In this document: positions 5,089-18,420 of the stretch, in pieces | Layout of the letters: the number at the start of each line of letters is the position of its first letter | Position numbering within the stretch: position 1 is the stretch's first letter | Origin: Echinicola rosea | Lineage (GTDB): Bacteria > Bacteroidota > Bacteroidia > Cytophagales > Cyclobacteriaceae | Direction: 5' to 3' | Assembly: GCF_005281475.1 (NCBI RefSeq) | Contig: NZ_CP040106.1 | Coordinates: 4,864,501-4,928,500 of the forward strand | Length of the DNA stretch: 64,000 nucleotides | The notes under the pieces: generated by a model | The model's input: only the letters and a program-made list of their open reading frames with translations | Told to the model about the DNA's origin: nothing | The model's database searches: none | Made by a program: the position numbers and the translations under genes

Positions 5089-7422
5089 TCATATTTTTGT
5101 AATCGTTTCTTCCAAATTATATAAGGTCACGATGACTTGCATCATGGCGGCTGCGTTGGCGGTCATGGCCGTTTCTTTCAGCGGTTTTTCTCCCACTTCC
5201 AGCGTAAGATCTATCTGCTCAGGCTGCGCCTCAAACCGGGCTTTTTCCTCCTCAAAATAGGCCATTAACAAAGCTGATTCATTCGGTTTGGCATCTCGGC
5301 AAACCACCTTCCTGAAGGCCCAGTTGATTGCTTCTTGGACTTCCATCCCTTGGTGTTCTATCTCTGTGGCCAAAACGCGGGACGCTTCCAGCACAAAGGG
5401 ATCATTCAACATCACCAACGCCTGCAAAGGTGTATTAGTCCGTCCACGGGTGACTTCGCAGCGGTCCCGGTTGCTGGCATCAAAAATGATGGACTTCGGC
5501 GGCGGCACGGTCAACTTGATAAAATGGTACAAACCCCTGCGATAAAGGTCATTTCCTTTATCCTGTTCATATTTGGCCAGTGATCCCCTCCCGGAGGTCG
5601 CCGCTTCCCACAGCCCATCTGGTTGATAAGGTTTGATGCTTGGGCCTCCAATCTCCTTATTGAGCAATCCGCTGCTCGCAAGCACCAAATCCTGGATACT
5701 CTCGGCAGTCAATCGCAGTCGGGGTGCCCGTGCCAAATAGAGGTTTTCTGGATCTTTGGAATACGCTTTTTCTTTTATTTCAGCACTTTGCCTATAAGTC
5801 GCCGACATATAAATTTGCTTTAGCAATCGCTTGATGTCCCAACCGTTTCCCATAAAATCCACCGCCAGCCAATCCAACAATTCCGGATGGGTAGGAAGGT
5901 CTCCCTGCATGCCAAAATCCCCAGCGGACTTCACAATTCCCTGCCCAAATATCTCCTGCCATAGCAAATTGACAAACACCCGGGCGGTCAAGGGATTTTC
6001 AGGATTTGTTGTCCATTCTGCTAAGCCTAGCCTGTCTTTCGAATAATCTTCTCCAAAGGCCATGACCGACGGAGGCGTATTTGGCTGTACCTGTTTGGTG
6101 GGGGCATCATACACCCCCCGATCCAATATGTAGGTCTTTCGTAAAGTATCCAGCTCATCCATCACTGAAACCATCACTTTGCTGGTGTCTTGGTGATTGA
6201 GATAGCTCAGCACCCCACCTGCACTTATATCGTCTTGGTCAATCCACAGAATGGGTGTTTTGGCAGGGACACTCCGTGCCACATCTCCTTCAAAACCCTT
6301 TTCGGGTGTATTGTTAAAAAAGGCATATAACTGAAAGTAATTTTCTTGCGAAAAGGGATCGTACTTATGGTCGTGACACTGGGCACATTCCATGGTGATG
6401 CCCAAGATACCTTTGGAAAACGTATTGGTCTTGTCGAGGACATACTCCACCCGGTATTCTTCATTGATCACTCCGCCTTCTTCGGTGTATTTATGATTTC
6501 GGTTAAAAGCCGTGGCCAAAATCTGCTCTTTGGTGGCATTGGGCAGCATATCACCTGCAAGCTGCCAAGTGATGAACTGGTCATAGGGCATATTAGCGTT
6601 CAATGCATGGATCACCCAGTCCCGATAAGGCCATTGAGAGCGGTATTCATCGTCTTGATAGCCGTAGCTATCGGAATAGCGAGACACATCCATCCAAAGC
6701 ACGGCCAACTTCTCTCCATAAGACTCTTTTGCCAATAGCTCGTCGATCAGGCGCTCATAGCCCTGCTCGTCCATATCTGCATACCGCTCCATCAAGTCGA
6801 TAGCTGGAGGCAAACCGGTAATGTCCAAGCTCAGCCGCTTGATCAGTGTCTGGGCATCGGCTGCTGCATTGGGCGAAAGGCCCTTCTCCGCCATTTTGGC
6901 CAAGGTAAACTGATCGATAGCATTGCTCGTCCAATCAGTCGCAGGGGGTAGATCGGCTTTTTGGGGTGGCACAAAGGCCCAATGCGGTTCGTATTTTGCT
7001 CCTTGCTCAATCCACTGCTTGATAATCGCGACCTCAGAAGGCTCCAATTTGAGATTGGAAGATGGAGGCGGCATTTGCTCGGCAGGGTCTTCTGAGGTGA
7101 TTTTCAAAAAAGCCAAGGATTCATATGGCTTGCCAGGTACAATCACATGCTGTGAAGGCTGGTCTTTCAGTGCGGCATAAGCTCCTTCTTCGGTATCCAG
7201 CCTAAGTCCCGATTCCCGCTTATTGGCATCCGGACCATGACAGGCAAAGCACTTGTCCGAAAGTATGGGACGCACATGAAAGTTATAGCTGATCTGGTCA
7301 GATGCCTTGAGTTGCTTTCCTCCATTATCAGGTGATTGACAGGACATCATTGCCCCTATCAATGCTGAAAATAGCATGATAGACTGGAGGTGTAAGCGCA
7401 TCAATAAATATTTTGGTCTCAT
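5089..7422 (-). CDS. PSD1 / planctomycete cytochrome C (PSCyt1-DUF1549-DUF1553) lipoprotein
   Basis: A 777-residue protein and first gene of the trio. Residues 8-30 form a lipoprotein-type signal ending in MMSC, so it is probably anchored at C28. A PSCyt1 heme motif C58-FA-C61-H62 follows, with ESGLRLD and EQMPPPSS. DUF1549 covers roughly residues 165-370, including a second CxxCH (C346-AQ-C349-H350) followed by DHKYDPFSQ. DUF1553 covers roughly residues 470-740 (NPLTARVFVNLLWQEIFG and the CEVTRGRTNTPLQAL segment). Genes like this are used as markers of planctomycete-style degradation of complex or sulfated glycans, but the chemistry is not settled. The 7423-7650 region upstream is AT-rich and would hold the operon promoter. 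Confidence 0.92.
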   Translation of the reverse strand: MRPKYLLMRLHLQSIMLFSALIGAMMSCQSPDNGGKQLKASDQISYNFHVRPILSDKCFACHGPDANKRESGLRLDTEEGAYAALKDQPSQHVIVPGKPYESLAFLKITSEDPAEQMPPPSSNLKLEPSEVAIIKQWIEQGAKYEPHWAFVPPQKADLPPATDWTSNAIDQFTLAKMAEKGLSPNAAADAQTLIKRLSLDITGLPPAIDLMERYADMDEQGYERLIDELLAKESYGEKLAVLWMDVSRYSDSYGYQDDEYRSQWPYRDWVIHALNANMPYDQFITWQLAGDMLPNATKEQILATAFNRNHKYTEEGGVINEEYRVEYVLDKTNTFSKGILGITMECAQCHDHKYDPFSQENYFQLYAFFNNTPEKGFEGDVARSVPAKTPILWIDQDDISAGGVLSYLNHQDTSKVMVSVMDELDTLRKTYILDRGVYDAPTKQVQPNTPPSVMAFGEDYSKDRLGLAEWTTNPENPLTARVFVNLLWQEIFGQGIVKSAGDFGMQGDLPTHPELLDWLAVDFMGNGWDIKRLLKQIYMSATYRQSAEIKEKAYSKDPENLYLARAPRLRLTAESIQDLVLASSGLLNKEIGGPSIKPYQPDGLWEAATSGRGSLAKYEQDKGNDLYRRGLYHFIKLTVPPPKSIIFDASNRDRCEVTRGRTNTPLQALVMLNDPFVLEASRVLATEIEHQGMEVQEAINWAFRKVVCRDAKPNESALLMAYFEEEKARFEAQPEQIDLTLEVGEKPLKETAMTANAAAMMQVIVTLYNLEETITKI

Positions 7423-7650
7423 GACCTAATTTAATAAGAAAAATAGCACAACACCAATTAATTTATTAATAAAAACAAAAAAGTAAAAATAATGACTTAC
7501 ATAACCTTATCTTTTTAGATTATCATTAGGTATTTTCGATTCACGCAATACCTCGACAAACTGGAAATATGCGGAGGGTAGGTTTTACTTTTCCCCGTTC
7601 ATTTCGGCTACGCCCAGGGAACGGGAAAAAAGATCGGTTACAATTAATCC

Positions 7651-9340: not shown

Positions 9341-10099
9341 ATGAGTCATTTAAACGGAAAAGTGGCTGTGGTCACCGGAGGCAACAGCGGCATTGGTTAT
9401 GCTACGGCCAAAAAATTAAAAGAAGAAGGTGCAAATGTCATCATCACGGGCCGATCTGAAGAGAAAGTCAGGACTGCAGCAGCCGAATTGGGCGTAACAG
9501 GGATCACGGCCGATGTCCTGAACCTAACGGCGATCGATGCAGCGGTCACACAGGTAAAGTCGGCATTTAGCCTGATCGATATCCTTTTTGTGAATGCAGG
9601 TGTATTTTTCCCAGCACCGATCGGCCACACGTCTGAAGACCTCTTTGACCAACAAATGGATATCAACCTCAAAGGAGCGGTATTTACCATCGAAAAGTTC
9701 TTGCCCATCTTAAATGATGGCGGGAGTATCATCAACCTCTCCTCCATTAATGCCTACACAGGAATGCCCAATACAGGAATCTATGGTGCATCCAAAGCGG
9801 CACTGAATTCCTATACCCGAACAGCGGCCACCGAACTGGCACCGAGGAAGATCAGGGTAAATGCTGTAAATCCCGGCCCCATCTATACGCCGATTTTCAG
9901 TAAAACGGGCATGCCTGAGGACCAACTCAACGGCATGGCAGCCGCCATGCAAAATCGTATCCCGCTCAAACGCTATGGCCTACCCGAGGATATCGCCGAA
10001 TTGGTGGCCTTCCTGGCCTCTGATAGGGCGTCCTTTATTACAGGAGCTGAATATAATATCGATGGCGGTACCAATGTCAATCCCCTATTGGTAAGCTGA
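9341..10099 (+). CDS. Classical SDR family NAD(P)-dependent oxidoreductase
   Basis: A 252-residue protein of standard classical SDR length. It has the cofactor motif TGGNSGIG at residues 12-19, the NAG motif at N85, catalytic S135, Y148 and K152 in GIYGASKAAL, and the PGP motif that follows. The C-terminal FITGAEYNIDGG is typical of the 3-oxoacyl-ACP-reductase-like subgroup. The product is cytosolic and the substrate cannot be told from sequence. The gene is preceded by two strong palindromes and followed, 96 bp later, by a TetR-type gene on the same strand. This arrangement usually means the regulator represses the oxidoreductase gene and itself until a ligand appears. Confidence 0.93.
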   Translation: MSHLNGKVAVVTGGNSGIGYATAKKLKEEGANVIITGRSEEKVRTAAAELGVTGITADVLNLTAIDAAVTQVKSAFSLIDILFVNAGVFFPAPIGHTSEDLFDQQMDINLKGAVFTIEKFLPILNDGGSIINLSSINAYTGMPNTGIYGASKAALNSYTRTAATELAPRKIRVNAVNPGPIYTPIFSKTGMPEDQLNGMAAAMQNRIPLKRYGLPEDIAELVAFLASDRASFITGAEYNIDGGTNVNPLLVS

Positions 10100-10777: not shown

Positions 10778-10982
10778 AAGGGGAATTCTTCCCGGAGATC
10801 GTGGATTTTGAACCGTCCGGTTTTCAGGGAGAGCGTTTGGATGAGCATTGGATTTATTATTCTGTGACCAACTAAAAATATCCATAAAAGCTCAAAAGCA
10901 CCGTGCTTTGTAAGCCCAAAACTCCAAAAACACAAAAGGGGAAGAAGCTTTCCCCATTATTATCCCTTTCCCATCACCACTC
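10778..10982. other. Intergenic segment with a possible C-terminal gene remnant
   Basis: After the TetR stop, the +2 frame reads FFPEIVDFEPSGFQGERL and then DEHWIYYSVTN before a stop at about 10875, without a start codon of its own. It looks protein-like but is too short to assign, and may be a relic of a gene lost when the cassette array formed. The rest of the stretch shows nothing recognisable. Confidence 0.25.
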
Positions 10983-11040
10983 GTTCAACACTGCATTCAG
11001 ACTAGGCTGTTCCAGCCGTCAGAATGCTTAGTTATTGCCA
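10983..11040 (-). repeat. attC-like site 6, closing the ParDE cassette
   Basis: On the minus strand the order is AATAAC, a 3-base spacer, arm GCATTCTGACGGCTG, loop, arm CAGCCTAGTCTGAATGC, a 3-base spacer and GTTGAAC. The arms pair except for one mismatch and two extra bases (TA) on one side, as with the extrahelical bases of integron attC sites. The R' box GTTGAAC fits GTTRRRY exactly. At 58 bp it is the classical '59-base element' size. Its R'' box only roughly matches the cassette start (GTTGACAAC). Confidence 0.72.
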
Positions 11041-11060
11041 ACAGTTTTTGATTCATTCAG

Positions 11061-11348
11061 TTATAATTTTTGGCTCAAGTCTTGTCTTCCGACGATTGCC
11101 ATTATTTCTACAATATTTTCATTGATTCTGTAGTAAATACTATCCACTCCGCATACACAACGTCTATACCCTTTTTTGATGTAATCCACAGATTCAAAGG
11201 AAAAGGGTCGTTCGGCAATAATGTCAAAATATTCAAAAAACGATTCGAAATATTTGTCAGCTTGGGTCATTCCAAATTTTTCGACTCCGTAATGGTGAAT
11301 CCGAATCAAATCAACTTTGGCTTCGTTAGTCAATTTGTATTTAGCCAC
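11061..11348 (-). CDS. parE: RelE/ParE-family toxin
   Basis: A 95-residue basic protein. It shows the ParE/RelE pattern: N-terminal YKLTNEAKVDLIRIHHYGVEKFG, central FSFESVDYIKKGYRRCVCG and C-terminal IYYRINENIVEIMAIVGRQD. ParE toxins poison DNA gyrase, while the related RelE branch cleaves mRNA; the DLxxIxxYG opening fits ParE better. The start overlaps the stop of the upstream antitoxin gene by 8 bases, the usual translational coupling. Both lie in the last cassette of the integron-like array, where toxin-antitoxin pairs are thought to stabilise the array. It would be held inactive in the cytosol by its partner and autorepressed by the complex. Confidence 0.88.
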   Translation of the reverse strand: MAKYKLTNEAKVDLIRIHHYGVEKFGMTQADKYFESFFEYFDIIAERPFSFESVDYIKKGYRRCVCGVDSIYYRINENIVEIMAIVGRQDLSQKL

Positions 11349-11580
11349 CTAACAAAGACTTTGATTGAGCTAAAATACTTTCTTTACTATCTATCGTAAA
11401 TCCACTACTTTCAGCTTTTTCCAATTTAGCTCGAATCCAATCAATTTGAACTTGTTGTTTTCGGGCTTGTCTGATCAAGTCGTTGACCAATTCACTTTTG
11501 CTTGAATATTCCTTACTGTCCACTTGGGCCTTTAGCCACTCGTCATTCGGTTTTGTAAATGATATACTTTGTCTTGACAT
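11341..11580 (-). CDS. parD: ParD-like ribbon-helix-helix antitoxin
   Basis: A 79-residue protein beginning MSRQSISFTKPNDEWL, a typical ParD ribbon-helix-helix N-terminus. The SKSELVNDLIRQARKQQ segment follows, and then an extended acidic tail (LEKAESSGFTIDSKESILAQ) that would wrap the toxin. The ATG at 11580 is chosen because the longer open frame upstream (to 11628) would add unrelated residues before the conserved start. It overlaps the ParE-like gene by 8 bases. The dimer is expected to neutralise the toxin and repress the pair's promoter, which must lie in the 50 bp between this start and the attC-like site at 11632. Confidence 0.87.
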   Translation of the reverse strand: MSRQSISFTKPNDEWLKAQVDSKEYSSKSELVNDLIRQARKQQVQIDWIRAKLEKAESSGFTIDSKESILAQSKSLLGG

Positions 11581-11631
11581 AATTTTATTTTTTGATGTAA
11601 AAATACACCAAAAACGAATCGTTTCCAAATT

Positions 11632-11766
11632 GTTGTCAACGGTAAAGTATAAGCGGAGTGCGGGATTTCAGAGCAATTCGCTTTCCGCCTTCCGTAAAGT
11701 TAATTAATAGAAAAAATGCTCAATTTTTGTTACTTACCCCGCATTACGCTTATACAATGTTGTGGG
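11632..11766 (-). repeat. attC-like site 5, closing the zeta cassette
   Basis: Arms at 11647-11664 and 11738-11755 (GTATAAGCGgaGTGCGGG against GTATAAGCGtaATGCGGG) pair along 18 bp with two mismatches, and are bounded by AAC...GTT. The R'' box CCCACAAC (complement of 11759-11766) is the exact reverse complement of GTTGTGGG, which begins this same cassette after site 4. The last codons of the 63-residue cassette ORF read through this site into its stop, as is common for cassette genes. Confidence 0.72.
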
Positions 11767-11925
11767 TAGTAATTCATTTGGATCTACCGCTTCAATTTTG
11801 CCATTTCTGGTTACAATCATTGGGCTTTTCTTTTGTTTCTTGAATTCCACAAGCCTTTTGTAGGTCTCTTCAAGCCCTTTAACTATTCTGTCTCTTTCCT
11901 CTTTTAATTGCTCTTTATTGTCCAT
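11734..11925 (-). CDS. Small protein following the zeta-type kinase, possible antitoxin
   Basis: A 63-residue charged protein. An N-terminal helical half (EQLKEERDRIVKGLEETYKR) is followed by VEFKKQKKSPMIVTRNGKI and a tail ending LYKRNAG that is encoded by the attC-like palindrome. It starts 11 bases before the end of the zeta-type kinase gene, so the two are translationally coupled. The position and size suggest an antitoxin or regulatory partner of the kinase. In the classic epsilon-zeta pair, however, the antitoxin comes first and has a different three-helix fold, and I do not recognise a family here. The partner role is an inference from overlap only. Confidence 0.6.
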   Translation of the reverse strand: MDNKEQLKEERDRIVKGLEETYKRLVEFKKQKKSPMIVTRNGKIEAVDPNELLPTTLYKRNAG

Positions 11926-12490
11926 AATATTTTCCTTTTAGTTCATTCCATCTTTCTGAATTATTGATGGTTTCTTCCCCTAAAGCACCTTCTGCAATAA
12001 TTTCATAATTATCACCCGAATTATTTACAAACAGCCAGTTGTCTACCTTAGGGAGAAAAAGGTTGAAAAAATTGTTCAACCCACTAGTATATCTTCTTCT
12101 GATAACTTCCTCAGGAATAAAATGGCCACCTTCTTTCACCCTTGTCTCAACTCTGGAAATTGCCAATTCCTCAGAATTAAGCCAAAAAAACAAGCAAGTG
12201 ACTTGATATCCCACCCCCTTAGCTTTTTCAATAAATTTAACGTAGCTCCTGGTTGAAAGTGTAGTTTCAAATGCAAAACTTTCGCCTGCCTCTAACAAAT
12301 TCTTTATCCTTTTTAACATTAATCTGCCAGCTTCAATTCCTGCTTTTTCCGGTTGGAATGGGGACAGCCCTCTTGCAATTTCATCCGCATTCACAAACTC
12401 TTTGCAATCCAGTATTTCCGGTAAAATGGTATATGATGCTGTTGTTTTTCCAGCCCCATTACATCCTGCTATAACGTATAATTTTTTCAT
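11915..12490 (-). CDS. Zeta-toxin-like P-loop kinase
   Basis: A 191-residue protein from the ATG at 12490; a longer frame using TTG at 12499 adds only three residues. It opens MKKLYVIAGCNGAGKTT with a Walker A motif at residues 9-17. FVNADEIARGLSPF follows, then FAFETTLSTRSY, the pattern of zeta-toxin kinases and related nucleotide kinases. Zeta toxins phosphorylate UDP-N-acetylglucosamine and block cell-wall synthesis; related enzymes use other small substrates, so the target here is open. It shares a cassette with the overlapping 63-residue ORF and is bounded by attC-like sites at 12543-12678 and 11632-11766. Confidence 0.85.
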   Translation of the reverse strand: MKKLYVIAGCNGAGKTTASYTILPEILDCKEFVNADEIARGLSPFQPEKAGIEAGRLMLKRIKNLLEAGESFAFETTLSTRSYVKFIEKAKGVGYQVTCLFFWLNSEELAISRVETRVKEGGHFIPEEVIRRRYTSGLNNFFNLFLPKVDNWLFVNNSGDNYEIIAEGALGEETINNSERWNELKGKYYGQ

Positions 12491-12542
12491 CCAAAACAAA
12501 TATACAATTAACTATGGATTTGGTAGCGTGTCCTGCCTATTA

Positions 12543-12678
12543 CCCACAACGGTTTGCAGGTTTAAGAATTTGCGGAATTACTTGCAGAAACTTTGTGAGC
12601 CTGCACTAAACTTAATAATAACAAGTGATGGAAGTGAAAGCACTTCGCCCGAAATTTTTTAGACCTGTTGTTATAGGC
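12543..12678 (-). repeat. attC-like site 4, closing the truncated 174-residue cassette
   Basis: Minus-strand order is GCCTATAAC (R''), an arm with CAGGTCTAAAAAATTTC, a long centre, an arm AAATTCTTAAACCTGC and CCGTTGTGGG (R'). The two arms pair imperfectly over about 20 bp and are bounded by AAC...GTT. The start of its own cassette, which should read GTTATAGGC, is missing, consistent with the truncation of that cassette by the adjoining intron fragment. Confidence 0.6.
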
Positions 12679-12683
12679 AGTTT

Positions 12684-13208
12684 TTATTTATCTGGGCTAG
12701 CTTTTTTATTGTAAATCTTATTTAACTGAGCATATAAACTTGTCAATTTGGGTTGAAGGCATGTATTAAGATAAATGTCAATATTTTTATCACTTCCGTG
12801 TTTTATAAGCAACTGTTTTAATCCAATATTTAATTTCTGTAAATCTTTGTCTTTTCTAATTTTTTTAATTTTCAAGTTGTCTTGTATATGTTCATAACGG
12901 TTTTGAAAGATATGACACGTATTATGTCGTCTATACTCTATATACGAATATTCATCTTCTCCCAATTCTGATTTAATATTTGTCAATCCATTAATGAGTT
13001 CATCATACCATTCTAACTTGTTTTCATTCTTTCCGCCTCTTAAATGTTCAAAGACTTTAAGAGCATAAGATAAACCTTCCGCGGTAGCTTCATAGAATTT
13101 TATATAAAACATTTCTTGATAGATAAAATCCCATTTTTCAGTCAGCTCGTGATTTAAATAAAACAGAGAAATCTCAACGCTACTACAAGTCAATCTGTCT
13201 CTACACAC
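12684..13208 (-). CDS. Unknown protein, probably N-terminally truncated
   Basis: An open frame of 174 codons from a GTG at 13208. I do not recognise a family. The sequence is largely helical, with FYIKFYEATAEGLSYALKVF and charged C-terminal helices (LKIKKIRKDKDLQKLN), no signal peptide and no membrane segment. Upstream, the reading frame meets DNA that looks like the RNA part of a group II intron (13209-13648), and the expected cassette start and the other half of the upstream attC-like site are missing. The natural start has therefore probably been deleted, and the first dozen codons may be intron-derived. It ends just before attC-like site 4. Whether it is expressed is doubtful. Confidence 0.5.
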   Translation of the reverse strand: MCRDRLTCSSVEISLFYLNHELTEKWDFIYQEMFYIKFYEATAEGLSYALKVFEHLRGGKNENKLEWYDELINGLTNIKSELGEDEYSYIEYRRHNTCHIFQNRYEHIQDNLKIKKIRKDKDLQKLNIGLKQLLIKHGSDKNIDIYLNTCLQPKLTSLYAQLNKIYNKKASPDK

Positions 13209-13648
13209 ACTATCGGTTTTCTACCTCTAAGTTGTCCTTATTGTGTATTTCCCTTGGCATTTGTGTGTAGTTTCCCAAGTTCCGTAAATAAGCCTGAATA
13301 AAGTTCTTGCCATCTGAATGACGCCAGCCTTACAGAAAATAAATAGGCTCGCTCTGTAATTAATGCTATTGCTAACATTACTTTTCACTCCGTATCATAC
13401 TTCGTAGCTTTTGACTGGAGGTTCCTACTTCTCGACACCTCTTCAATGGTTCACTTTCGTTCAACTCCTTTATTTGTACCTGCTAGCCTCTTTGGACTAG
13501 ATTCTCCTAAACGCTCAGCACCAAGACTATTAATCAAAGCACCTTTAGGTGGTTTAGAGCCATCGCCTATACAACGCCCCTGATGGACCTACCATCATCT
13601 TATTTACAGCATTCAACCTTTTATTGCCGTGGTTGATTCTTGGCACAC
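13200..13648 (-). mobile_element. 5' fragment of a group II intron inserted in an attC-like site
   Basis: On the minus strand the segment starts GTGTGCC at 13648, matching the GUGYG 5' end of group II introns, directly inside the second arm of attC-like site 3. It then has about 440 bp of structured non-coding sequence with features reminiscent of intron domains I-III: GAAAGTGAACC, GGAACCTCC, TACGGAACTTGGGAAACTAC and GGGAAATACAC. There is no reverse transcriptase ORF and no domain V-like 3' end, so only the 5' part remains. Group IIC introns are known to target attC sites, which fits the position. The assignment rests on remembered consensus pieces, not on a folded structure. Confidence 0.5.
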
Positions 13649-13766
13649 TATGAAAAGTAGGCGATTTCGAAGCACAAAATTTTCGGTTAAGCACCAAGTT
13701 TGATACGAGCCACCAGCCTCGAACTTACTGCTGTTTCGCCTATTTTTTATATACATTGTTACCTGC
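13649..13766 (-). repeat. attC-like site 3, interrupted by the intron fragment
   Basis: Arms at 13736-13753 and 13649-13664 (TATAAAAAATAGGCGA against TATGAAAAGTAGGCGA) pair with two mismatches. The R'' box GCAGGTAAC (complement of 13758-13766) is the exact reverse complement of GTTACCTGC, the start of this cassette. The second arm ends abruptly where the GTGTG of the intron begins, so the R' end is lost. Confidence 0.65.
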
Positions 13767-13772
13767 TGGCTT

Positions 13773-15455
13773 TTATTTTGGTATTCCCTTTTTATTTGAG
13801 TTTTCAATCCAATTCTTAACCTCTCCAATAAAATCCCAAACATCTCCACCTGCCGGCTTTATGTAGTTTGGCTCTTCTGGATTATCACCCATTTTTGAAA
13901 ATATATCAATAAGCCAGTTTGAACCGTGGCCATTAGCGTTTAGATGTTTTAACCAACTTTCTAATTCTCCTTTTTGTATTACAAAAACACCATATTCGAC
14001 CAACTGATTTAGAAAATTTGAACAAGCTTCTTTATCTTCACCATTTAATAAATCTATACCTCCTTTGATTTTCCAATTTACACCCGTGTTATTAAATGTA
14101 TCGTATAAACTCTTTCTTTGACTATGAAAAGGTTGATGATTCAATTGAGGAATAAATGAGCCATCTAATAATTTTGTAAATACCTGACCGCCTTCTTTTA
14201 AAACGTCAATGTCAACAACTCCAACTGCTGGAATTCCAAGTTCTCTTAATGGTTTTACAATTTCCCAAACCGTTTGTTTATTTTGAGCATTTATAAACAG
14301 ACAATTACTTATGGCTCTCTCATCACCCGCTGATAATAATCTTTCATTAATTTCTTGATAAAATGCTCTGTCAGAGTCAGCTTCAGTTACAATAACAGAT
14401 TCGTAAAACAGACCATTTAAGACTCCCGTTGAGCGTAAAAGGGGATGTCTCATTAAATGTAAAATTTTCTCTTTTGGTAGAATTCGGGATGTTGGAATGC
14501 CATTTTTATAAGTCAACCTTACAATGTTTAGGGGAGAACCCGATTGAATGCATCCCATTAAAAAAGAAGCACTATGAGTTGCAACAAGAAGTCTTTTATT
14601 AGAATTTCTTAATGATTTCCCTATCTCTTTTCCTAGTTTGTTAGATAATGCAGGATGAAGAAATGCTTCTGGTTCATCAATTAATGTAATCTTAGGGTCG
14701 CCAGCAAGTAATGTTGTTAGTATTCCCGAAAAGGCTTTTACTCCGTCACTTGCTTCGTTTATAAGTGTTGCTTTTTTATGAAATTCAATAGCTTCATTTT
14801 CCCATCCTTTTTCTTGTCTTTCACTATTGGGTGCAGTATCTGAAAGACGAACTCTCAATTGACCTATATTAGTTGGGTCAATAACATAATATTTGCCAAA
14901 TGCCTCATAAATAATTCGTCTTAATTCTTTTCTTAAATCATTATCTAAAAAAAGGTGAGATAGATGATTTGTTGGCGTTGATTGAAGGTCACCAGCAGTT
15001 TGCTCATTTAATAAATTTAACCTATTAGTTCCATCTAACCGTAAAGTGTACAAGTCGATAAATTTGGAGTACCAATGATTATTAGATGGGGTTTGTGCTA
15101 CTCTTATAACTTCATCTTTTAATACTTTAACTCTTTCTGCTTGATTCTTTTGAGAACTTAATTTCCCAATAATTATTTGACCTTCACTAATAGATTCATT
15201 TTGTGTAGGAGTTTGCGTGATTTTGTTTAACTCTGATTCAATTTCATTTTTTGAAAGAGGTGTAAATGTCAAACTGTCCAAAATTAAATCATTTGGTTGT
15301 CCTGATGTTTTCCTTGAGAACTTTTCAATTTCAATAAGAATTCTACTTTTTCCAGAGTTGTTTGGTCCAACAAAGACAGTTATTGGTGTTAAGTCAACTT
15401 CAAGATTTGGTTGTCCTTGAGATGACCCGGACTTTAGTTTTATTTTATTTATCAT
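13773..15455 (-). CDS. OLD-family-like AAA ATPase with TOPRIM nuclease region
   Basis: A 560-residue protein. The AAA15/ABC-type ATPase half has Walker A G30-PNNSGKS, an ABC-like signature EASDGVKAFSGI (234-245), Walker B LIDEPEAFLHP with D260-E261, and an H-loop in ATHSASF at H294. From residue 350 a TOPRIM-like half follows, with VIVTEADSDRAFY (E358) and VGVVDIDV (D415, D417), the acidic residues that bind metal in OLD nucleases. OLD proteins use ATP-gated DNA cleavage in phage defence; Gabija GajA is built the same way. No GajB-type helicase is adjacent, so it would act alone or with the neighbouring cassette. It occupies a whole cassette, which is long for one. Confidence 0.85.
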   Translation of the reverse strand: MINKIKLKSGSSQGQPNLEVDLTPITVFVGPNNSGKSRILIEIEKFSRKTSGQPNDLILDSLTFTPLSKNEIESELNKITQTPTQNESISEGQIIIGKLSSQKNQAERVKVLKDEVIRVAQTPSNNHWYSKFIDLYTLRLDGTNRLNLLNEQTAGDLQSTPTNHLSHLFLDNDLRKELRRIIYEAFGKYYVIDPTNIGQLRVRLSDTAPNSERQEKGWENEAIEFHKKATLINEASDGVKAFSGILTTLLAGDPKITLIDEPEAFLHPALSNKLGKEIGKSLRNSNKRLLVATHSASFLMGCIQSGSPLNIVRLTYKNGIPTSRILPKEKILHLMRHPLLRSTGVLNGLFYESVIVTEADSDRAFYQEINERLLSAGDERAISNCLFINAQNKQTVWEIVKPLRELGIPAVGVVDIDVLKEGGQVFTKLLDGSFIPQLNHQPFHSQRKSLYDTFNNTGVNWKIKGGIDLLNGEDKEACSNFLNQLVEYGVFVIQKGELESWLKHLNANGHGSNWLIDIFSKMGDNPEEPNYIKPAGGDVWDFIGEVKNWIENSNKKGIPK

Positions 15456-15480
15456 ACTTTACGTAGATGTGTTTTAGCTT

Positions 15481-15617
15481 GCAGGTAACGTTTTGCAGCT
15501 AAGAAACGTGGGGCTTTTCGAAGCGCTTTCCTGTCCGCCTGTGACAAAGGTAGCCACGAAGATCGAACCTTTCGGAAACCAATGTCCGCCCCATGTTTTC
15601 TTAGGTGCTGTTAGTGG
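15481..15617 (-). repeat. attC-like site 2, closing the HEPN-like cassette
   Basis: The arm CTAAGAAACGTGGGGC near 15499-15514 pairs with the complement of GCCCCATGTTTTCTTAG near 15589-15605, separated by a GC-rich centre and bounded by AAC...GTT. The R'' box CCACTAAC (complement of 15610-15617) is the exact reverse complement of GTTAGTGG at the start of the same cassette. Total length is about 137 bp, long but within the range of variable attC sites. Confidence 0.7.
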
Positions 15618-15624
15618 CTGGCTT

Positions 15625-17073
15625 TTATATAAATTTCATTTCATTCTTATATCTAGAGTCATTAGCAAGTCTCTGAAGAGATCCTTTTGGAAAATTAATT
15701 ATCAGATCTAATACCTTTGTAATATGAACATCCTTTGTTTTTGATTTAAAGAAAGTTGCAAGTTTTCTCAGTCTAATGTCAGGTTTGGTATAATTGAAAT
15801 CTGTTACAAACTCAGGGTCTTTAAATAATCTTAGAAACTCCTTAATTTCTGTTACTGTAAATGACTCAATGAATTTGTTATAGAATTCTGCTGCATTTTC
15901 ATCAATTCCTTGACGGTAGCCCTTGCCGTTTCCTACATAACAAATTGAAATTACCTTGACGAATAATTTTCTAACAGCGTCTGGTATTCCATTTGCTGGT
16001 ATTGAAGCATCAATTGACTTTGCATGAGAATATTCATTATAAAAGTTGTTCCATTCAAAGTGTACAGTTTTTAAGTTTTGAAGTTTTTCAAGCAATTCTG
16101 CTGCTAAACTGTCCTCATCTTTGTAATGTTCCCCATTTACCGTTTCAAGAAATTTTTGAACTGCATCTTTTCTATCAACGTCTCCATTTTTTCTATAGAC
16201 GCCAAACTTTGCACCTATTCTAAATTTGGTGTCTTCTGTTGTGGATTGCCATATATGGGGAGTAAGCCGGTCAATGTTCTTGCGAACAGGTGCTTGAGTT
16301 CGTGGGTCAGAATAGATTCCGAAGATAGAAAGAAGGAAATCATCTACTCGTTCTTGTGGTTGTTTTAATAAATCTTGTCCAATTATAGGAAAGTCATCCT
16401 TTGGTATTTCTTTTGTCCTTATGTTTTCGAAAAGTTGCTTTATCTGAATTAAAGAATGGTCTGGCTTTGCGGTAATCGCGTACTTCAAGCAGCTCTCTAG
16501 TAGGTTCAGCATTTCTAACCCCGTGATTGAATTTTCATTAGGGTGTGCTGCACTTGCGTGATTTCTTAAATAATTTACATGTTCTAATCGTCTATAATTA
16601 ATATCATTTACAAAGCCGATCCTTCTGCAAATTTCCAATAGATCATGGTCTCCGATAGCCTCTAAATCATCTGCTGAATTTAGATTCTTATATTTAGAAT
16701 TTATGGTTCTTGAAACTTGAAGAAAATATTCTAGGTCAAAATTTGAAACTAATCGTCTTAATGCTTTAATCGTTTCATCCCACAAAAAATTCAGAGCACC
16801 GTCAAAAAGTCCAACGGATACGGCAACTGTAAACTTGGATAAATAGGTCGCTTTAAGCCTATCTTCCATTGGCAAAATCTCAATTGAACTTTCAAGTGCA
16901 TAAATCACTTTTCGTCTTTCTTCTATAGGAGATAGTATATTTTCAGTTGGTAATCCTACATGAGTTAAAAGGTTCGCCAATGGCTGATTAAAGGCAGCAA
17001 TTGAAGTTTCTATTTTTTCAGGTGTGTTTCCTGTTGGTATTAGAATGATCTGATTTTTGTTTTCTTTTTCCAT
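15625..17073 (-). CDS. Unknown protein with a HEPN-like RxxxxxxH motif
   Basis: A 482-residue, mostly helical, cytosolic protein with no signal peptide or membrane segment. I do not recognise a named family. Residues 160-180 read RRLEHVNYLRNHASAAHPNE, containing R170-N-H-x4-H177, which resembles the Rx4-6H catalytic motif of HEPN ribonucleases in a suitable helix context. That is the only functional hint. It fills one cassette, bounded by site 1 upstream and site 2 downstream, between a trypsin-like protease cassette and an OLD-type ATPase cassette, so a defence or toxin role is plausible. Alternative: a housekeeping-neutral cassette gene of unknown use. Confidence 0.6.
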   Translation of the reverse strand: MEKENKNQIILIPTGNTPEKIETSIAAFNQPLANLLTHVGLPTENILSPIEERRKVIYALESSIEILPMEDRLKATYLSKFTVAVSVGLFDGALNFLWDETIKALRRLVSNFDLEYFLQVSRTINSKYKNLNSADDLEAIGDHDLLEICRRIGFVNDINYRRLEHVNYLRNHASAAHPNENSITGLEMLNLLESCLKYAITAKPDHSLIQIKQLFENIRTKEIPKDDFPIIGQDLLKQPQERVDDFLLSIFGIYSDPRTQAPVRKNIDRLTPHIWQSTTEDTKFRIGAKFGVYRKNGDVDRKDAVQKFLETVNGEHYKDEDSLAAELLEKLQNLKTVHFEWNNFYNEYSHAKSIDASIPANGIPDAVRKLFVKVISICYVGNGKGYRQGIDENAAEFYNKFIESFTVTEIKEFLRLFKDPEFVTDFNYTKPDIRLRKLATFFKSKTKDVHITKVLDLIINFPKGSLQRLANDSRYKNEMKFI

Positions 17074-17090
17074 GGTCTATTTTTAGCTTG

Positions 17091-17154
17091 CCACTAACGG
17101 TTTGTGTATGGTGCGTATCCCGCAGGGTATGCACTATACACCTTGTTGGCGGTA
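17091..17154 (-). repeat. attC-like site 1, closing the protease cassette
   Basis: A compact 64-bp site. Minus-strand order is TACCGCCAAC, arm GTGTATAGTGCATACCC, loop TGC, arm GGGATACGCACCATACAC, CCGTTAGTGG. The arms pair over 17 bp with two mismatches and one side carries extra bases. The R'' box TACCGCCAAC is the exact reverse complement of GTTGGCGGTA (complement of 18021-18030), which begins this cassette. Confidence 0.78.
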
Positions 17155-17155
17155 G

Positions 17156-18001
17156 TTATTTTAATTGTTTCAAAATATTATCGGTATAATCCTCAATATC
17201 GAATTTGTTTAGAACATCAAATATCAACGAAGCTTTCCATACATGTCCTAATTGAAGAGATTCTTGGTCTTTTATTCCAACTGGTGTTTGATTTACGAGT
17301 TGTTCAAGAAACTTATTTTTTGTAAGCATTTGCATACTTGCGTACACACCAATAAATTTATTTATAACACCACCTTGCATTCCACCATCAATGGTTTCAT
17401 ACATTCCTTGAGCTCTAGCAAAAACTGGAGCTCCAGACATTCCAGGAAAAGCAGAGATGTCAAGTACAATAAGTTTTTTTCCATCAAAATCTACGTCAGG
17501 TTCACTTGCAATGCTTCCAGTTTTCCAAATGGGCAAAGAGTTCTTTTTATCGTAATACCCATAAGGGTATCCAACCACAGATGTTCTTGTCGTTGTTCTT
17601 ACTTTTAATTTGTTTTTCGCCCACTTTTCATTTATGCAGTTCACTATTTCCGCTTCTTGGTAAACTTGAGTAGGCATTGGGATTATGGCAAGGTCTGCTT
17701 CTTTGTTATCTTCATTTACCAACCATACTGGCTTATTTTCAGATGTATATAATGGAAAACGGAATTCTTTAACTTTTTCAGGATTGTCTTTGGATATATG
17801 AATGTTGAATGAAATATTGTCTCCAATTGGAGCCTTTTTTTCAAGAGGTGCTGAACCAGTTAATACATGATAGTTTGTAACTAAAAAAATGATTTGTTTT
17901 GAGTCGCACTCATGATAAACATAAAATCCTGTTCCTTGTGAAACTAATTCATTCCCTTTTAATAGTTTAATAGGAGTTGTTATTAATGATGCATCTTCCA
18001 T
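17156..18001 (-). CDS. Trypsin-like serine protease, cytosolic
   Basis: A 281-residue protein with a full trypsin-type catalytic triad: H45 in FLVTNYHVLTG, D103 in KEADLAIIPM and S189 in FPGMSGAPVF. The spacing and the GxSG context match HtrA/trypsin-like peptidases. There is no signal peptide and no PDZ domain, so it is likely to act in the cytosol. Stand-alone trypsin-like proteins occur beside bacterial defence genes, and this one is the first cassette of the array. It starts 20 bases inside the cassette boundary (18021-18030), so its promoter is either in that short stretch or upstream of the array. Confidence 0.82.
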   Translation of the reverse strand: MEDASLITTPIKLLKGNELVSQGTGFYVYHECDSKQIIFLVTNYHVLTGSAPLEKKAPIGDNISFNIHISKDNPEKVKEFRFPLYTSENKPVWLVNEDNKEADLAIIPMPTQVYQEAEIVNCINEKWAKNKLKVRTTTRTSVVGYPYGYYDKKNSLPIWKTGSIASEPDVDFDGKKLIVLDISAFPGMSGAPVFARAQGMYETIDGGMQGGVINKFIGVYASMQMLTKNKFLEQLVNQTPVGIKDQESLQLGHVWKASLIFDVLNKFDIEDYTDNILKQLK

Positions 18002-18020
18002 TTGTTAAGTTTTTTTTAAT

Positions 18021-18030
18021 TACCGCCAAC
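18021..18030 (-). other. Upstream boundary of the cassette array (half-site)
   Basis: GTTGGCGGTA on the minus strand complements the R'' box of site 1 and marks the start of the first cassette. Upstream, around 18031-18060, no partner arm for a complete attC or a recognisable attI is visible. The array therefore either begins at a secondary site or has been cut off from its integrase by rearrangement. Confidence 0.6.
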
Positions 18031-18420
18031 ACTTATATAAAAGCAACTCCATTGCCTCTATATCCATTATATTTTCCGTTTGTAAACGGCTATAAACGTT
18101 TATTTCCGGTTACAAACGAGTAGTGGCGAATTTAGCCCTTCCCAAAGAGACATAAAATACCTTAAATAGGGTATTTTTAATTGATGCCTCGGATAGAAGA
18201 TGGAATTTGGTGCGAAAAGGACGGTTTTTTCCGTCAGGTAAGTGCTGATGTTGCGCCGGGTTTACCGGGCGGTGCCTGTGTGCTTGCATATAGAGAGTAG
18301 TATATTTTGTTAAAAAATGGCTAATACCAAATCAAATATAGAATTTTTTGACTGTTATAGAAATATCAAATGGCTTTTAGTCATTTCTACTATATCAATC
18401 GGTGGTCAGTTTTAGATAAT
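18031..18420. other. Intergenic DNA upstream of the cassette array, no confident gene
   Basis: AT-rich DNA with one short plus-strand ORF at 18184-18300 (38 codons, MPRIEDGIWCEKDGFFRQV...) that is locally more GC-rich than its surroundings and might be a gene remnant. No ribosome binding site or family is recognised. Confidence 0.3.

Follow-up and report, generated by a model that had tools for sequence, protein, structure and literature searches.

A cassette array in Echinicola rosea as a probable member of an integron-like Bacteroidota system with an I2-less integrase

Classical integrons combine a tyrosine recombinase (IntI), an attachment site (attI) beside the integrase gene and one-way arrays of small cassettes; their cassette sites (attC) are AAC...GTT hairpins, cassette ends show the relation that circularisation produces, some cassettes are gene-less and the cargo is very diverse. 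The I2 domain of IntI has been described as docking the extrahelical bases of attC (PMC7790495), and strand choice as being directed mainly by the first extrahelical base (PMC2727003). We analyzed 64,000 nucleotides of the Echinicola rosea chromosome (contig NZ_CP040106.1, positions 4,864,501 to 4,928,500; this whole stretch is called the window, and coordinates refer to it unless marked as genome positions), which carry a cassette array on the minus strand. It is very probable that this is one array of a widespread integron-like system of Bacteroidota that shares the anatomy above, with an integrase that lacks I2 and attC that mostly lack extrahelical bases. The system works like an integron, and the tested features that define the IntI type (I2, the IntI clade and extrahelical bases) set it apart from IntI integrons.

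Compared with classical integrons, the present integrase has no I2 and lies outside the IntI clade, G-T wobbles occupy the attC positions that hold extrahelical bases in the IntI system, and the integrase and cassettes run in the same direction, with attI past the integrase stop codon. An integrase transcribed toward attI, in cassette direction, has a parallel in Treponema; those elements are published as intI integrons and were compared by their description, whereas the present integrases lack I2 (PMC3607928). A subgroup of integron-like tyrosine recombinases has been described in which the insertion is not fully conserved, and the present family may belong to it; in the portion of that report used here, insertion-less members are not tied to attC arrays and the insertion is called essential for integron function (PMC8138268). 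The NCBIfam family NF040815 (recomb_XerA_Arch, 'site-specific tyrosine recombinase/integron integrase') scores the array integrases at 193-229 bits, with 4/8 over its cut-off of 220, and a copy of the integrase on a Chryseobacterium plasmid bears this name. NF040815 is nevertheless a sequence label that is silent on attC, and it is nearly fitted (192.5 bits) by a recombinase of the E. rosea genome that we refer to as IS91-linked, as the transposase gene with which it occurs is presumably of IS91 type from the appearance of its sequence. For Bacteroidetes, an earlier survey is summarized as finding integrase-alone elements only and a later one as finding one complete integron, in Salinibacter (PMC9024848). 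Among the titles and abstract starts that searches of one open-access library listed, none described I2-less integron platforms; subscription papers and preprints lay outside this search.

Cassette ends and a shared attI

The window array runs on the minus strand from 18,030 to 10,983 and, as the first-pass annotation (made from the letters alone) had described, comprises six gene units with AAC...GTT imperfect palindromes between them: in minus-strand order, a protease, a 482-amino-acid (aa) protein, an OLD-type ATPase, a 174-aa open reading frame (ORF), a zeta-like kinase with a 63-aa ORF, and ParDE. The four exact inversions reported there were confirmed at 9-10 bases each: the cassette start is the inverse of the cassette's own R'' box for the protease (10 bases, GTTGGCGGTA), the 482-aa gene (9), the OLD gene (9) and the zeta gene (10 bases, GTTGTGGGTA). 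The relation was absent in the 174-aa cassette, whose start has been destroyed by an intron, and in the ParDE cassette, which is followed by a different, terminal hairpin. For 78 pairs of successive attC, we compared the bases that follow GTT with the inverted R'' of the next site: 59 pairs agreed at 6 or 7 of the 7 positions, against 2.9 expected from shuffled partners, and the observed mean match of 5.59 of 7 compares with a highest shuffled mean of 3.06 of 7 (2,000 shuffles). Several mismatching pairs bridge long gaps in which a site may have been missed. A match was also seen in 28 of the 37 pairs from named Bacteroidota loci. The circularisation logic and the cassette array in a Bacteroidota chromosome that had been proposed for the window are both supported. 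Cassettes had a median length of 960 bp, and 220/232 ORFs lay on one strand.

At the start of the window array lies a 40-mer, ATGGATATAGAGGCAATGGAGNTGCTTTTATATAAGTGTT, that resembles attI. It occurs as three exact copies in the 6.06-Mb single-contig genome, all on the minus strand and each at the start of an array (genome positions 342,939, 4,792,581 and, in the window, 4,882,528), and cassettes begin at the GTT of every copy; no further copy was found in the whole genome at up to 3 mismatches. At 4.79 Mb, the GTT falls 62 bp past the stop codon of a 360-aa tyrosine recombinase (genome 4,792,646-4,793,728, minus strand), about 82 kb from the window array, and the integrase-adjacent array that follows (array 1) spans about 19 kb. 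None of the integrase-family matches of this genome lies inside the window; the earlier remark that no integrase is in view thus held for the window and failed for the genome, which has this 360-aa integrase with the same attI. An attI position could be assigned at 31 loci, and at 23 of them the site lay 12-148 bp past the integrase stop. One locus whose integrase contains a stop (L069) was left out of the start/R'', attI-placement and bulge counts and kept in the 20-place attC count given below.

Wobbled attC and integrases without I2

Alignment of 43 attC gave an 18-pair stem with 230 two-sided changes, compared to 75 when shuffled and at most 60 when the stem was slid, and two-sided change was seen in 16/18 stem pairs. 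Pair 22-137 was G-T in 37/43 attC and Watson-Crick in none. Over 105 attC, G-T pairs numbered 172 for the bottom strand and 17 for the top strand, with clustering at stem positions 7-8, 10 and 12-13; this count covers attC with at least 12/17 stem matches, from a scan that scored both kinds of G-T alike. Among 104 attC confirmed by exact end identity, 84 folded without need of a bulge, 10 fitted better with a 5'-arm bulge and 10 with a 3'-arm bulge, and none had two 5'-arm bulges. Classical attC beside true IntI in the same phylum instead had two single-base 5'-arm bulges at 10 sites, in 8/16 loci, all 10 on the strand opposite intI and upstream of it. One-sided extrahelical bases, as in IntI-type attC, are not a feature of the attC here, which mostly need no bulge and have G-T wobbles instead.

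A covariance model built from the 43 attC of the new kind (R1) recognized attC of the window array, and these lack paired extrahelical bases. Running an attC covariance model had been proposed with the first-pass annotation: R1 returned attC 2, attC 4, attC 5 and a damaged attC 3 (13649-13751), and did not recover attC 1 (17096-17147). As three of the four matches are in the training set, blind support comes from other loci. On 41 of 80 named loci, none of which was used in building R1, there were 58 matches at E <=0.1, all on the expected strand and downstream, in 14/18 Bacteroidota loci versus 0/23 others. A separate observation concerns a genome of another class that has a true IntI and, nearby, four attC of the new kind by R1 (L239, 2641-5304).

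Catalytic residues, which we take to be the set Arg/Lys/His/Arg/His/Tyr, were invariant in 16/16 array integrases. The spacing from the KDR to the HxLRH motif was 58-61 aa in 52/60 integrases and 38-39 in 3 (unread in 5), and in IntI it was 100 aa in three of the four rows, out of 20, in which the pattern was readable, and 85 in one overlong frame. The stretch that holds the extra domain I2 in IntI is about 41 aa shorter in array integrases, and I2 is missing from them. All eight array integrases tested scored 195-225 bits against the IntI model TIGR02249 (cut-off 265), the 360-aa integrase of this genome leaves model positions 182-239 as a gap, and no TIGR02249 match above cut-off was found in the whole E. 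rosea genome. In two trees, IntI formed a clade that excludes the array integrases, with support of 100/99 and 100/100. The second tree added three further rows with 100-aa spacing (L217, L220, L224) and left out four non-Bacteroidota rows with a stop; the three added rows fell inside the IntI clade, so not all of the non-Bacteroidota loci are I2-less. Array integrases formed one group at 74/80 in the first tree; 29/30 grouped at 97/96 in the second, where they joined twelve array-less short-spaced recombinases to the exclusion of IntI at 90/88. The I2-less IS91-linked recombinase of this genome instead joined IntI in the first tree (85/92, on a long branch). Many array integrases are also extended at the N-terminus, by some 80 aa or more (L030, 10490-10729); the array-bearing integrases L077, L082, L070 and L084 lack this extension.

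Relatives of the integrase were present in 98/196 genomes of the family (E 1e-60) and in 146/295 genomes of the class (profile, E 1e-80). At 20 of the 22 best other places (a second place in G120, and G157, were left out), we counted 47 attC-like sites downstream in the orientation of the integrase, against 1 upstream and 5 in the opposite orientation. A further 39 loci across families, from 40 chosen regions without L140, had 61 attC-like sites downstream in 244 kb, 4 on the opposite strand and 1 upstream in 58 kb, and at least one attC was present at 18 of the 26 whose downstream sequence reached 2 kb. Many contigs stop shortly past the integrase, as repeats would cause. In a named set, of which 74/80 loci were scanned (without L198, L200, L201, L206, L213 and L225), loci with at least 2 kb downstream had attC in 14/18 Bacteroidota versus 1/24 others; L195, with 196 bp downstream, is in neither group. 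Among the carriers with an organism name are Arundinibacter roseus, Algibacter onchidii and Flavobacterium aciduliphilum. A Chryseobacterium plasmid has both integrase and attC, and the system was seen on at least two of five plasmid records checked. With relatives in half the class genomes and attC at 18/26 and 14/18 readable loci, these data suggest that surveys which search for integrons by IntI overlook a large pool of cassettes, which includes anti-phage genes and plasmid copies. Long arrays were also noted in other genera (L127, L123, L171 and L080), with 7-10 attC detected in about 10 kb, and would suit a study of cassette turnover.

Proposed mechanism and competing explanations

We infer from the sequences that the I2-less tyrosine recombinase most likely catalyzes recombination at the attI G/TT just past its own stop codon. 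Its partner would be the G/TT in the folded, single-stranded bottom strand of a cassette's attC hairpin, and circular cassettes would be inserted, all in one orientation. Two bottom-strand stem G-T wobbles, which become A-C mismatches if the top strand folds, probably mark the right strand; in classical integrons, this role falls mainly to extrahelical bases and I2. The window array forms a second platform, which shares this attI, has no integrase of its own and is probably served in trans. The case is coherent since the domain and the extrahelical bases are both missing, and the lineage seems to solve the strand problem by wobbles.

Several points weigh against this reading. The I2 domain is described as necessary for cassette capture by IntI (PMC7790495). 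Recombination was observed in none of the data, which are sequence alone, and action in trans on the window array is a prediction. The hairpin scanner was in-house, and a single one of the 43 aligned sequences served to name the stem; the 16/18 pairs with two-sided change are not above shuffles, as 63/500 shuffles reach this number, and a bulge improves the fit in 20/104 confirmed attC. Within the window array, attC 3 is broken and the joint of the terminal hairpin matches no simple crossover. Integrase loci for the attC counts were chosen rather than drawn at random, and 8/26 loci with at least 2 kb downstream show no attC, as do 4/18 of the named Bacteroidota loci; these are either empty platforms or loci without the system. 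Finally, the best integrases of the same genus are 36-38% identical and occur in 3/5 other same-genus genomes searched, so that the system looks acquired.

The first-pass annotation had called the array a cluster of attC lacking an integrase (CALIN). By the feature that defines such clusters, at least two attC and no adjacent integrase, the term holds, as the window array has four full attC and one broken one. An ordinary CALIN would further consist of cassettes left behind when an IntI integron lost its integrase, or put in place by an IntI elsewhere, and we regard this as improbable and largely refuted, although the start/R'' relation, the AAC...GTT cores and the hairpin arrays are all as in integrons, and classical IntI is found in other classes of the phylum (105/395 genomes above the TIGR02249 cut-off). 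In addition, a Vibrio attC stripped of its extrahelical bases is reported to recombine on the bottom strand 6.2-fold less and on the top strand 50.7-fold more (PMC2727003). Against an IntI orphan stand the lack of any TIGR02249 match over cut-off in this genome, the single row of the same class (G232) among 107 genomes with TIGR02249 matches, and the contrast between paired 5'-arm bulges at half of the IntI loci and at 0/104 attC here. Moreover, the window attI is that of a cognate-looking I2-less integrase, and the attC mostly lack extrahelical bases.

That true cassettes are moved by some other enzyme, such as the host Xer or the IS91-linked recombinase, with the adjacent integrase a bystander, seems to us slightly less probable still. 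A transposase gene with its own I2-less recombinase does lie beside the terminal hairpin of array 1, and its IS91 type is presumed from its sequence; on the other side, integrase family, attI and array keep their order and strand across many families, and related recombinases outside Bacteroidota have almost no attC (1/24 in the comparison above). Terminators or dispersed repeats with end matches by chance are excluded for practical purposes. In its favor, all the hairpins are intergenic, and a group II intron follows one of them, much as some such introns follow terminators. This explanation is refuted by the start/R'' match of 59/78 pairs, and the bottom-strand G-T bias, a cassette unit that is 96% identical at two places and the second, independent sample of loci in which all R1 matches had the expected strand are also at odds with it.

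Under the favored reading, an I2-less integrase acting on wobbled attC, a more tentative idea is that folded single-strand cassette shuffling arose twice, once in IntI, through the gain of I2 as a reader of extrahelical bases, and a second time in a Bacteroidota recombinase lineage whose members read G-T wobbles and have no I2; we hold this possible but rather doubtful. The 90/88 grouping of twelve array-less recombinases with the Bacteroidota family would fit two origins, and one origin with losses would be compatible too. The origin of single-strand recombination becomes directly testable with a large natural family that has cassette arrays, no I2 and sites mostly without the bases that I2 reads.

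Features and cargo of the window and sister arrays

All features of the window array are on the minus strand. The attI-like left end, the 40-mer at the array start, occupies 18028-18067, with the crossover G/TT at 18030. Cassette 1 (17156-18001) encodes a trypsin-like protease of 281 aa (PF13365, 4.8e-11; PADLOC candidate PDC-S45, 6e-39), and is followed by a short attC 1 of 52 nt (17096-17147), which rests on scan score (14.7) and fold. Cassette 2 (15625-17073) encodes the 482-aa protein, without Pfam or PADLOC match, and attC 2 (15487-15612, 126 nt) scored 14.5 in the scan and 87.9 bits with R1, having been in the training set. Cassette 3 (13773-15455) encodes an OLD-type AAA-TOPRIM ATPase of 560 aa (PF13304, PF20469; PADLOC Old, 2e-22); only the 5' part of attC 3 (13649-13760; R1 59.1 bits at 13649-13751) is left, the rest being broken by a group II intron. 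Cassette 4 (12684-13208) holds the 174-aa ORF, with no family above cut-off, its cassette start lost and its 5' side fused to the intron remnant; attC 4 (12548-12672, 125 nt; scan 13.0, R1 79.5 bits) and attC 5 (11638-11761, 124 nt; scan 15.7, R1 87.4 bits) were both in the training set. Between these, cassette 5 (11734-12499) encodes a zeta-toxin-like kinase of 194 aa (PF06414, 9e-12) and the 63-aa ORF. Cassette 6 (11061-11628) encodes a ParD-like antitoxin and a ParE-like toxin (PF05016, 3e-10, above its cut-off; PF03693, 20.8 bits, slightly below its cut-off of 21). At a score of at least 13, the in-house scan found four hairpins in the window, those of attC 1, 2, 4 and 5.

The last hairpin (10987-11033) had been read as an ordinary attC of the ParDE cassette. 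This reading fell, as the same hairpin ends arrays 1, 2 and 3: 62 bases are identical in the three (window 10975-11036; L031, near 6380-6445; L029, near 7475-7540), with the joint R''..AA/TAAC. Because it is joined to three different last genes, the last cassette of each array seems to have lost its own hairpin. The transposase gene, together with the short-spaced tyrosine recombinase that belongs to it, is found around 200 bp past this hairpin in array 1 (L029, 5293-7285).

The group II intron in attC 3 (13246-13648; RF01999, 97.7 bits, with the Rfam match at 13,478-13,596) is ORF-less, lies on the cassette strand and has lost its 3' end from about 13,246. A copy that is 93% identical lies in an attC of array 3 (about 338 kb in the genome), where the 3' domains are present and RF00029 matches too, and an uninterrupted sister of attC 3, 85% identical, lies at genome 4788963-4789074. 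Group II introns have been described before within or close to attC, in cassette orientation (PMC7923331); the present case differs in being ORF-less and in two attC of one genome. Both copies sit at the same place in the stem (window 13246-13648; L031, about 9386-9882), and a 57-base piece of the intron recurs at 17 further genome places at 78%. The start GTTAGCAATAGC (13,365-13,376) that had been assigned to the 174-aa cassette, then called HEPN-like, is intron sequence, and the true start of this cassette is therefore lost.

The defense or stability character proposed for the cargo held in part, for the OLD-type ATPase, the PDC-S45-like protease, the zeta-like kinase and ParDE; on the other side, PADLOC gave no family match for the 482-aa, 174-aa, zeta-like, ParD-like and ParE-like proteins. 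Beyond this genome, the 482-aa protein has homologues in 5 of 395 genomes; in two of the five, which belong to other families, the homologue is flanked by attC and by inverted ends that match. The cargo of the system is highly varied: among a random 150 of 215 cassette ORFs (at least 80 aa, cassette strand), matches fell in 98 Pfam families, none with more than 4 members. An empty site in a related genome, as had been sought, was found in the same-genus genome G190, where 87 bp separate the SDR-TetR from the fucosidase genes that flank the array, compared with 8,056 bp here; in genome G836, other genes lie between the genes that flank the window array.

Searching the genome with R1 gave at least 15 matches at E < 1e-4 (150/1,414 first-look candidates scored), including a fourth cluster at 5.20-5.21 Mb (L262, genome 5202.7-5211.5 kb) and a single site at 4.508 Mb (genome 4507.8 kb). 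With exact short patterns, no piece of the ATGGATATAGAGGCAATGGAGNTGCTTTTATATAAGTGTT attI or of the terminal hairpin was seen in the fourth cluster, and the single site likewise has no recognizable copy of either. Array 1 carries HamA and HamB of Hachiman side by side (PADLOC, E 1e-147 and 2e-234), an EcoRI-type methylase with a GmrSD/HNH protein, and a 2,281-aa protein with helicase-type AAA domains. It also contains a cassette without an ORF of at least 30 aa in two copies, 96% identical, with different neighbors at both joints (L030, 9187-9583 and 3284-3685); one copy lies at attI, and this cassette could be a promoter carrier.

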